Notes under the pieces: generated by a model
Database searches by the model: none
Told to the model about the DNA's origin: nothing
Seen by the model: only the letters and a program-made list of their open reading frames with translations
Program-made: the position numbers and the translations under genes
Part shown: positions 1-3,101 of the stretch, piece by piece
Numbering within the stretch: the stretch's first letter is position 1
Layout: every line of letters starts with the position of its first letter
NCBI GenBank assembly: GCA_030123565.1
Contig: CP126122.1
Coordinates: forward strand, 3,548,800 to 3,612,799
DNA length: 64,000 nucleotides
Direction of reading: 5' to 3'
Source of the DNA: Nitrospira sp.
GTDB taxonomy: Bacteria; Nitrospirota; Nitrospiria; Nitrospirales; Nitrospiraceae

Positions 1-378
1 CTGCCCTTGATTGGCCTTACAGAGGTAGTTCAGGGCCCCCTGAGCGGACAAGCGGGCTTCTTTGTGCAACCGCGCCTTGCCATAGTCCACCGCCAGGGTC
101 AACTGGCGGATCGCGTCGGAACCGGCTCCGCCGGACTGCGCCTTGCTGAGCCCGTCTTGCAATTTCGCCGTCGCGCTGTCGATCACCGTCACATCAGAGC
201 CCCATCGCTTGGTGACATCGACGGTCGAACGCCTGCCGAGCCCCGGCGCATCGGTCAACTCGACGATGGCATCGTTCACCGCCTGAATGGCGTCCGCGAC
301 CTGAGCCTGCGCGGCGATCGGCATGCTGCCGATCGCCAGCGCCGCCACGCCCAGCGTCACTGTTAACATTTTTTTCAT
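1..378 (-). CDS. Secreted hypothetical protein, C-terminus cut by window edge
   Basis: The first 126 codons of a minus-strand gene are present and run off the left edge. The ATG at 378 is preceded by a GGAGACC-like ribosome site. The N-terminus is a clear Sec signal peptide: KK followed by a hydrophobic stretch ending near AAQAQ, at about residues 1-23. The mature part is mostly helical with one Cys near the window edge. I do not recognise a family. It lies downstream of the porin gene on the same strand, separated by an 81-base spacer carrying a 10-bp inverted repeat. A periplasmic location is inferred from the signal peptide alone. Confidence 0.7.
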   Translation of the reverse strand, partial: MKKMLTVTLGVAALAIGSMPIAAQAQVADAIQAVNDAIVELTDAPGLGRRSTVDVTKRWGSDVTVIDSATAKLQDGLSKAQSGGAGSDAIRQLTLAVDYGKARLHKEARLSAQGALNYLCKANQGQ

Positions 379-459: not shown

Positions 460-2160
460 CTAGAAGTTCATCCACAGTGACATATAGGCCCAATGTTGAT
501 TGACCGTCTGATTCAAGGTGCTGGTCAAGTAGCCGCCGCTGAACATGGTGCCGTAGGCTGCCTGGAGCGCCACCTTGCCGTCGGCGAACATTCTTGTGTA
601 GGCGACGTCGATTTCGTCACCGACATGCGTCTTCGTGTTGTTCGGGTTCGAGAAGACGTAACAGCCTTGCGCGCCTCGATACCAACAGTCCTTGGAATTG
701 GCCAGATTCAGGTTCGTGTACCACAATTCGATGTGGTCACGTGCCGATGGACGGGCTTGGAAGTTGACCGATGGAGACAACATGTTCTTCCAGGCCTGCA
801 CGTCCATGTAGCCCATATGGATGTGGTTGGTCGGGAAGAAGTTTTCAAAGGTATTGGCTGTCTTACAGACCTGACCTGCCTGGCCGCAGGTGTTGTTTCG
901 GCTGTCGCCGGAGGCATAGTCGAAGTTGAAGGCCAGGCGCGGCTTCCAGGCCGTGTCATAGAACGTGTAGCCGATCCAGTTTCTGGTCGCCCAGGCGTTG
1001 ATATGCAAACATTTCTGCTCACCAGTGCAGGCGCCGACCTGACCCATCTGGCCGAACTGCCAGGCGATTTCATTCGAGAAGTCGAATCCGCCTTTGCGCA
1101 TCTCGATCCGGTTCCCGATCATGTGGCGGGTCTGGTTCGAGTGTTTGGCCGTGCCAAGCCCCTGCGCAACGTTATCCGCCGAACTCAAATTATTCTTGTA
1201 ATAGACGTAGAACGGTTCGATCACCATGCCGGGAATGGCCTTGTACTGGTTGTAGAAAATGAACATGTCGGCATCGCGGTTCGCATCCCCAGCCACCTGG
1301 TTGGTCGCTCCACCAGCGACCGCAGTACCACCGGCCACATTAGGTGAACCGCTACCAACCGGAGACGCCTGACCGAGATCGGTTTCCGCATTCCTAAACC
1401 AACCGAAATAGCTGTCCCAGGTCTTGGTCTGGTAGGCGAACATCACGCCGTCATGGGAATAACCGGTGTTGGCCCAATCGAAGTGGCCGAACAGAGAATG
1501 GTTGCCGAAGATCACGTATTGCCGACCGGCCTTCATGCTGAGGCCTTGAATCCCGCCCAGATTCCGCACCAACATGTAGGCGGCTCGCACACCCAAGCGG
1601 CCATTGTTTCCGCCGCCACCGGAGATCCCGCCGTTATGGTTCAAGGGATCGCCGCCGTTGCCGGCGTTGGTGGGGTTTCCGTTACCGCCCCAGGTCGCGC
1701 TGTCGATGATTTCCATGTAGAAGTTGACGTCCGGCGAGAGGTCATAACCGATGCCCAACCGCACCCATTGTTGCACGAAGAAATCGTTCCCGCTGTTTCC
1801 ACCATTGGTCCCCACCCCACCTGGAGCACCCCTGGTTCCAAACGTATTACAAGACCCGTTGGCGTTGATGGCCGCGCCGAAGCAGGTGTGGTTTCTCATT
1901 TCCGGGCGCACACGCAGGTCGGCGCGCATCCAGAGGTTTTTCACGTCGAAGTTCCGGCCGATGACCGGATCGTAGAGCTCGTACGCTTCTTTCTGCGGCA
2001 TGTTGCGGGGGATGGCGGGAAGGTTCGTGATGCGTTCGCCCGGGGGAAGTTCGAATCCGGCAAAGGCCGGGACTGCCAGACACTGCAGGGCCGTAACCGC
2101 CGCAGCGCCGAAGATGGTGGCCAACCGGCCCCACCTGGTCCGTCCGTGGATGCGTTTCAT
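460..2160 (-). CDS. Outer-membrane porin, alginate-export-like beta-barrel
   Basis: A 566-residue protein if started at the ATG at 2160, which has a strong AGGAGG ribosome site; an upstream in-frame start would add 24 residues that do not look like a signal peptide. A signal peptide ending near VPAFA is followed by an alternating pattern typical of a beta-barrel, with Gly/Asn-rich loops at about residues 100-180. The chain ends in WMNF, a C-terminal Phe as in many outer-membrane proteins. It resembles alginate-export-type (AlgE-like) porins that I recall from Nitrospira. Substrate is unknown. Its unusual 5' leader is described separately. Confidence 0.75.
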   Translation of the reverse strand: MKRIHGRTRWGRLATIFGAAAVTALQCLAVPAFAGFELPPGERITNLPAIPRNMPQKEAYELYDPVIGRNFDVKNLWMRADLRVRPEMRNHTCFGAAINANGSCNTFGTRGAPGGVGTNGGNSGNDFFVQQWVRLGIGYDLSPDVNFYMEIIDSATWGGNGNPTNAGNGGDPLNHNGGISGGGGNNGRLGVRAAYMLVRNLGGIQGLSMKAGRQYVIFGNHSLFGHFDWANTGYSHDGVMFAYQTKTWDSYFGWFRNAETDLGQASPVGSGSPNVAGGTAVAGGATNQVAGDANRDADMFIFYNQYKAIPGMVIEPFYVYYKNNLSSADNVAQGLGTAKHSNQTRHMIGNRIEMRKGGFDFSNEIAWQFGQMGQVGACTGEQKCLHINAWATRNWIGYTFYDTAWKPRLAFNFDYASGDSRNNTCGQAGQVCKTANTFENFFPTNHIHMGYMDVQAWKNMLSPSVNFQARPSARDHIELWYTNLNLANSKDCWYRGAQGCYVFSNPNNTKTHVGDEIDVAYTRMFADGKVALQAAYGTMFSGGYLTSTLNQTVNQHWAYMSLWMNF

Positions 2161-2252
2161 AGCGTTCCTCCTGTGAATTGGATGGCGACCCTTCATGTAC
2201 CCATGCACTCCGGGCGCCCTCTGTACATCCAACCGCTATTGCACTATGAAGC

Positions 2253-2350
2253 CGACTCGTCTGTGTGGTTCAGAGTGGGCCAGACCCGATGGTGCCCACC
2301 ATCCGGCCTCGTCGCTCGCGTGGATCCCGATGCGAGCTTCCCACACAGTC
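2253..2350 (-). promoter_or_regulatory. Structured 5' leader of the porin gene
   Basis: CTGTGTGG at 2261-2268 pairs exactly with CCACACAG at 2341-2348. Inside this closing helix are two hairpins: GATGGTG (2288-2294) with CACCATC (2297-2303), flanked by GGCC/GGCC at 2278-2281 and 2305-2308, and GCTCGC (2314-2319) with GCGAGC (2332-2337). Together they form a three-way-junction-like fold about 100 nt upstream of the porin ATG. No known riboswitch consensus was recognised. The fold is inferred from complementarity only. Confidence 0.5.
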
Positions 2351-2360
2351 AGGGTTTGAA

Positions 2361-2405
2361 GTTATAGACCGTGGTCACCTCCCTTCATAGTCGTACATAG
2401 TCGTA
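2361..2405 (-). promoter_or_regulatory. Candidate activator-dependent promoter of the porin gene
   Basis: On the minus strand a TATAAC box (plus 2361-2366) lies 19 nt downstream of a perfect tandem repeat of TACGACTATG (plus 2386-2395 and 2396-2405). No good -35 box is present; the repeats occupy roughly -32 to -51 relative to the predicted start. Transcription would begin near 2354, immediately before the closing helix of the structured leader. Confidence 0.4.
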
Positions 2406-2423: not shown

Positions 2424-2723
2424 TTAGGCCTGCTTGGGCAAACCTGCTTCCTCTGCCCCGCGCTCTACGCCCGATGTGGCGTGATTGATTTCCTCTTCCG
2501 CTTCCTTCATCGACGATTCGAAGTCCTGCTCCACCATCTTCATCTCCTGCTGGATCAGGTTGATCTCCGGCTCAACCGTCTTTTTCAGGTCATCCGCCGT
2601 TTCCTTGAACCCCTTGACGGCCTGGCCGACCTGGCGGCCGATCTCGGGCAGTTGCTTGGGCCCGAACAGCAGGAACGCAATCACCAGGATGATGAGAATT
2701 TCTCCGGCGCCAAGACCAAACAT
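2424..2723 (-). CDS. tatB: Twin-arginine translocase subunit, TatA/TatB family
   Basis: A 99-residue protein with the Tat architecture: a short N-terminal membrane helix with Glu8 (residues 5-21), an FGPKQLP hinge, an amphipathic helix (about 24-45), then a charged coiled-coil-like tail rich in Glu and Lys. It should help form the twin-arginine pore that exports folded proteins across the inner membrane. The GP hinge, Glu8 and long acidic tail lean towards TatB, while the GQAVKGFKE segment is TatA-like, so the symbol is tentative. It follows another TatA-type gene by 93 bases; tatC is not in the window. Confidence 0.8.
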   Translation of the reverse strand: MFGLGAGEILIILVIAFLLFGPKQLPEIGRQVGQAVKGFKETADDLKKTVEPEINLIQQEMKMVEQDFESSMKEAEEEINHATSGVERGAEEAGLPKQA

Positions 2724-2816: not shown

Positions 2817-3101
2817 TTACCCCTGCGTGGTCCGTGGCGGTGACGCCGCATCGGCCTGTTGAGCGGGCGGCGCGGCGGCCGGCTGTCCACTCTGCTGGAT
2901 CTGTGCCGACGGTTGAGGAGCAGCGGGGTCCGCCTCCGAGGCGGTCACGTCGATCGCATCTGCTTCATGGACCGACTTCTTGAACCCCTTGATTGCCTTG
3001 CCCAATCCCTCACCGAGCTGAGGAATTTTCCCCGCACCGAAGATGATCAGCACGATGATGAGGATCAGCAGCAGCTCCATCCAGCCGAACGAACCAAACA
3101 T
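2817..3101 (-). CDS. tatA: Twin-arginine translocase subunit TatA
   Basis: A 94-residue TatA-type protein. It has an N-terminal membrane helix of Leu and Ile (residues about 8-22), an [20 protein letters not shown] hinge and amphipathic helix typical of TatA/TatE, and a disordered Ala/Pro/Gln-rich tail. TatA oligomers form the export channel of the Tat pathway with TatC. It is the upstream member of a two-gene minus-strand unit with the TatA/TatB-like gene. The start at 3101 gives the usual MFG N-terminus and has an AAGGAG-like ribosome site. Confidence 0.88.

Follow-up and report, generated by a model that had tools for sequence, protein, structure and literature searches.

We describe a structured leader of an outer-membrane porin gene in Nitrospira sp., which we propose, with a probability of roughly 0.6, to be a member of a new family of cis-acting porin leader RNAs in the Nitrospiraceae that would act on translation initiation or mRNA stability. 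The window analyzed here is a stretch of 64,000 nt (CP126122.1, positions 3,548,800 to 3,612,799) from a 4.6-Mb, single-contig genome whose genus also includes Nitrospira defluvii (FP929003.1). Judged by comparison of homologous sequences, the leader is a conserved, covarying RNA structure at a fixed position. The comparison indicates that its family-wide core is made of two hairpins, P3 and P4, and that the three-way junction, in which P2 and P3 lie inside the closing helix P1, is the form of this genus. The three-way junction had been proposed in the first-pass annotation, which overlooked P4; the junction stands, mainly as the local form of a more widely shared element.

The features of the locus are summarized in Table 1. 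The leader extends from approximately 2390 to the start codon at 2160, and the printed strand has to be reverse-complemented to give its sense RNA. The upstream placement of the leader had been recognized correctly; the strand had to be corrected, as the porin is encoded on the minus strand and the RNA reads from ∼2390 down to 2160. The order TatA-type gene, TatA-type gene, leader and porin was held at all loci with enough flanking sequence, and the position of the leader between tatA and porin was fixed even where porin identity was only 33-39%. At six loci (L066, L069, L070, L071, L074, and L029) the porin behind tatA is ∼33-36% identical to the window porin, with P4 and the start region AUCCAAUUCACAGGAGGAACGCUAUG retained; at these loci the porin has probably diverged or been replaced while the leader stayed.

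Several observations were made on the neighboring genes. A gene for a small secreted protein lies downstream of the porin in the window (1-378, minus strand) and at locus L107 (6950-7378), and it is also found behind the porin in several further genera. The protein has no Pfam or NCBIfam match and by eye is reminiscent of small metal-binding SmbP-type proteins. At locus L167 (G039 contig 8, 107400-108700) the porin is duplicated in tandem with the small secreted gene between the copies, and the start region of the second copy carries no leader. Such a leader was also not found at the porin paralogue of the same genome (51% identity; L111, G000 contig 1, 779904-781565, minus strand), where a small ORF and a long GC-rich hairpin lie upstream.

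Table 1. Genes and predicted RNA elements of the tatA-porin locus, in window coordinates; RNA arms are written 5' to 3' on the sense strand.
Feature	Position	Strand	Sequence	Remarks
Outer-membrane porin (Alginate_exp, PF13372)	460..2160	-		102 bits against a cut-off of 25.2; downstream of leader
Translation start region	2158..2183	-	AUCCAAUUCACAGGAGGAACGCUAUG	Near-invariant; Shine-Dalgarno AGGAGG 2167-2172, start codon 2158-2160
Match of covariance model R1 to the leader	2158..2301	-		E = 1.3e-9; sole match in genome
Hairpin P4	2178..2233	-	GUUGGAU (2227-2233) with AUCCAA (2178-2183)	Found in all homologues aligned
P4 inner stem	2212-2219 with 2184-2191	-	GGGCGCCC with GGGUCGCC	
Hairpin P3	2282..2309	-	GAUGGU (2298-2303) with ACCAUC (2288-2293)	Loop GGGC (2294-2297)
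P3 outer stem	2305-2309 with 2282-2286	-	AGGCC with GGUCU	
Hairpin P2	2332-2337 with 2314-2319	-	GCUCGC with GCGAGC	Swap test p ≤ 5e-5
P1, closing helix of three-way junction	2341-2348 with 2261-2268	-	CUGUGUGG with CCACACAG	Swap test p ≤ 5e-5
P0, tentative outer helix	2383-2390 with 2244-2251	-	CUAUGAAG with CUUCAUAG	Pairs in most genus members, partly G-U
5' conserved strand	2373..2387	-	UGAAGGGAGGUGACC	Shine-Dalgarno-like, without start codon at normal spacing
TatA-family protein gene	2424..2723	-		Upstream of leader; its end is 2424
Second TatA-family gene	2817-3101	-		Farther upstream; same order at homologous loci

We examined the three complementary pairs of the printed strand from which the first-pass annotation had deduced a structured RNA. 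All three are perfect inverted repeats: the 8-bp arms 2261-2268/2341-2348, GATGGTG/CACCATC (2288-2294/2297-2303) with 2 nt between, and GCTCGC/GCGAGC (2314-2319/2332-2337) with 12 nt between. The second had been read as a 7-bp hairpin with a 2-nt spacer, which is valid for the repeat and not for the RNA: an RNA hairpin loop of 2 nt is impossible, and the sense strand makes 6 bp with a 4-nt loop. The exact layout is rare, as had been argued. Two such hairpins in an 8-bp closing helix are unmatched elsewhere in the window (0 others in 1880 overlapping 102-base pieces), and none of 20,000 random sequences matching the local composition had the same layout; the criteria were set post hoc. The single-sequence folding energy of the sense strand is unremarkable (z = -1.1, 23 of 200 shuffles equally good), and the opposite strand gave z = -2.2; the mean z of the P1-P1' stretch was -2.8 in 25 homologues of the genus. 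On folding energy alone the case could not have been made, in spite of the rarity of the layout.

A DNA search detected the leader, at 74-94% identity, in one genome of a sister genus and in the majority of those of the genus itself; of the 29 genus genomes, 25 were found by a start-region pattern to have homologous leaders between tatA and porin. In the genus alignment the blocks UGAAGGGAGGUGA (invariant in 26 leaders), AUGGUGGGCACCA, AGCGGUUGGAU, and GCCAUCCAAUUCACAGGAGGAACGCUAUG are invariant or nearly so, and between them stand stems with changing letters. Pairing was assessed by an alignment-free swap test, in which the duplex energy of a genome's own two arms is compared with that of arms exchanged between genomes; for P1 and P2 the arms were taken from alignment columns. 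Within the genus, own arms gave -12.8 kcal/mol vs. -11.0 for swapped arms in P1 and -13.5 vs. -10.4 kcal/mol in P2 (p values in Table 1). Two wrong-arm control pairings within the genus gave p = 0.88 and 0.31. P0 was rejected as a firm helix and kept as tentative only, since its swap tests were not significant (p = 0.22 within the genus and 0.63 across genera). In the sequence-only genus alignment, 92.2% of cells were paired (34-43% with slid partners) and 11 pairs carried two-sided changes, a level reached by 0 of 500 shuffles; in P2, seven of the ten aligned pairs changed on both sides. The check for compensatory changes had been named beforehand as the refuting test, and P1, P2, and P3 all show such changes. 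A strict all-pairs covariation scan (R-scape-like, 25 genus sequences) found nothing significant (best E = 0.3), which we attribute to the use of 25 closely related sequences and to the drifting register of P1; this result is still counted against the structure.

The start-region pattern also led to leaders in other genera, including that of N. moscoviensis (NZ_CP011801.1). The covariance model R1 was built solely from 10 leaders of other genera with the genus of the window held out, and it recovered the window leader (Table 1). R1 matched 64 of 175 genomes of the family, in 14 of 22 genera. Among its weak matches, the six fetched have tatA upstream, the porin downstream and the GGCAC hairpin, and five of them are in genera new to the set; two weak matches of genus g19 were left out of this flank check. 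Two further weak matches, in G189 and G389, were rejected as false since tatA and porin are missing. In 295 genomes sampled across the phylum, the only match outside the family was the one in G389, without either gene, which we took as chance. Leaders were confirmed by gene order and the GGCAC hairpin in 14 genera. The leader is single-copy per genome and always stands between tatA and porin where the flanks are readable; its apparent absence in G008, where the porin is present, was dismissed as an assembly gap of Ns.

Across these genera the two core hairpins changed in sequence and kept their pairing. The P3 stem takes the versions GAUGGU/ACCAUC, GCCGU/ACGGU, GGAGGCAU/AUGCCUCU, GGAAGCGCG/CGUGCUUCC and others, and GGCAC is conserved in the loop region. 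With one genome per genus, the P3 swap test across the 14 genera gave -16.1 for own arms vs. -10.7 for swapped arms (z = -5.7, p ≤ 1e-5). P4 has the outer arms GUUGGAU with AUCCAA(U) across the family, and its inner stem, GGCAGCC/GGCUGU or equivalents, covaries across genera (swap test p = 0.0018). In the R1-fitted alignment of 61 leaders, which leans toward the structure, 91.9% of cells were paired vs. 21-48% with slid partners, and two-sided changes were found at 18 of 21 pairs, including all nine model pairs of P3.

These changes also bear on whether the element works as DNA, that is, as inverted repeats binding a transcription factor or as a mobile repeat. P3 does contain a near-perfect palindrome, ATGGTGGGCACCAT, that is invariant in the genus. 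However, the palindrome occurs once in the genome and the region is single-copy; from genus to genus, different complementary arms stand around a constant center, which is the reverse of an operator. In addition, pairing of the helix arms is better on the porin-sense strand in 20 to 26 of 26 sequences (the number varies with the helix), which would be expected of changes that proceed via G-U pairs, and these pairs favor the sense strand. A DNA-level function therefore has next to no probability. As for known repeat elements (REP, MITE), the leader is present in the genome in a single copy, not in many.

The leader is not retained everywhere. Several leaders of genus g6 have P4 and lack the GGCAC hairpin, and three g6 genomes that were checked (L164, L165, and L166 in G052, G107, and G104) have tatA next to the porin and no such leader. 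This suggests that the leader was lost within g6. The porin start is also different at these three loci. Because some g6 genomes keep tatA and porin without the leader, its conservation elsewhere is more than a consequence of gene order; the same leaderless genomes and the g6 leaders without the GGCAC hairpin show that it is not essential throughout.

The 5' conserved strand follows tatA in most other genera in the version GGAAGGRGGUGAC. It resembles a strong Shine-Dalgarno sequence and shows near-complementarity to the 16S rRNA 3' terminus. Equivalents were seen at L034, L062, L065, and L144-L148, at distances to P3 of tens to >100 bases. The strand is absent from genus g10, in which a promoter-like pair, TTGtcA-17-CAgAtT, was noticed by eye ∼45 nt before P3. 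Four further candidates were considered and dropped. An upstream ORF behind the Shine-Dalgarno-like strand has, on inspection, no start codon at normal spacing, and a sigma-54 promoter within P3 (TGGCAC-like) has, on inspection, no -12 element. A pseudoknot of GUGACC with the loop GGGCAC has five positions with little variation, and its sixth breaks down in roughly half of the genera. A contact between the P3 and P4 loops was seen by eye in single sequences only.

The leader would form part of the porin mRNA and would act after transcription start, on translation initiation or on mRNA stability. This proposal draws on three observations: the stems behave as RNA, the sense strand of the leader is free of terminator-like hairpins, and P4 lies directly against the ribosome-binding site, terminating 5 nt before the Shine-Dalgarno AGGAGG in the window. 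With respect to transcription attenuation, no minus-strand terminator-like site (GC-rich hairpin plus U-run) was found between positions 1 and 5000. With less certainty, the P3 loop may be read by a factor acting in trans, of which an RNA-binding protein is the most likely kind, as a conserved terminal loop on a sequence-free stem is the usual mark of a trans-recognized hairpin. The genome encodes csrA (PF02599, E = 3e-22). The P3 loop is GGCAC, and a CsrA-type GGA in exposed hairpin loops is not conserved; the GGA of the 5' strand is not retained in all genera, and that of the Shine-Dalgarno sequence is generic.

Alternatively, P4 and P3 may belong to a constitutive 5' UTR that merely protects a strongly expressed porin mRNA or keeps the ribosome-binding site open, without sensing. 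The near invariance of the start region and the location of P4 immediately before the Shine-Dalgarno sequence are consistent with this possibility, and stabilizing stem-loops are known from a porin 5' UTR, that of the E. coli ompA mRNA. A pure stabilizer, however, needs no conserved loop, yet GGCAC has been kept in 14 genera on a rewritten stem. We consider constitutive protection possible and unlikely.

A second alternative is that the three-way junction of the genus, or P3 together with P4, is a new riboswitch class sensing an ion or small molecule connected with nitrite oxidation, in which ligand binding switches between folds with an accessible and a hidden start region. The junction and the conserved single strands would suit such a device, and RNAalifold predicted that the 5' strand can alternatively pair with the start region. 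This pairing exceeded shuffles only marginally within the genus (p 0.013-0.165) and was mostly at chance level elsewhere; moreover, the junction is not common to the other genera, and the conserved bases belong to a terminal loop rather than to a shared junction core. We regard a riboswitch as quite improbable. If it were one, control of porin translation would set outer-membrane permeability.

The first-pass annotation had called the leader a cis-regulatory RNA, either a sensor or a small-RNA binding site. The conserved, covarying leader is borne out, and an Hfq-type small-RNA target is less likely because no Hfq gene (PF17209) was found in this genome by a search that was positive in E. coli. 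A trans-encoded small RNA could use its seed to pair with the conserved start region or the loop of P3; mRNAs of porins are well-known targets of small RNAs (PMC9988348, PMC10117139), and an exposed loop that is short and conserved would be a suitable seed site. Against this, no candidate small RNA was identified, and the six conserved loop bases are few for Hfq-free pairing. A small-RNA target is highly unlikely, and a cis-acting leader RNA that would act after transcription start is the explanation we favor.

The leader belongs to no recognized class, as the earlier reading had noted. With Rfam 15 (4227 families, gathering scores), the window contains only a tRNA elsewhere; at 2100-2500 nothing matched up to E = 5, and six homologous loci gave no credible match. 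A conserved covarying structure upstream of one orthologous gene is the general mark of a cis-regulatory leader, and this was found here. In the open-access literature no paper was found on this leader or on RNA-based regulation of the porin gene in Nitrospira, and PMC8115632, PMC7078480, and PMC11109978 contain nothing on the leader of this porin gene. We concluded that the element probably represents a new family within a known kind, that of structured, conserved leader RNAs, with a predicted function. Nitrospira are important nitrifiers that are difficult to culture. A family-wide leader that is present in one copy and has a conserved loop points the experimenter to the gene, the bases and the compensatory mutants, and if the leader responds to a condition, it would reveal how Nitrospira adjust the outer membrane.

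Compared with small-RNA-controlled porin mRNAs, as described in PMC9988348 and PMC10117139, the likeness would be post-transcriptional porin control; the difference is that neither Hfq nor a small RNA was found here. Orphan riboswitch candidates and leader motifs from comparative genomics (PMC7266159) are alike in having a covarying structure fixed upstream of one gene. The porin leader differs from the orphan candidates in that it is not in Rfam 15, is confined to one bacterial family and one gene, and has its conserved bases in a terminal loop instead of a shared junction core. The leader of E. coli ompA also has stem-loops in a porin-type 5' UTR, although it is not known to be defined by a conserved loop of the P3 kind. 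Hairpin operators in mRNA are bound by proteins in the case of phage MS2 coat protein, ribosomal-protein leaders and CsrA sites. The porin leader resembles these operators in its conserved loop on a free-sequence stem near the ribosome-binding site; its loop is GGCAC instead of the GGA loop of CsrA sites, and its trans factor is putative.
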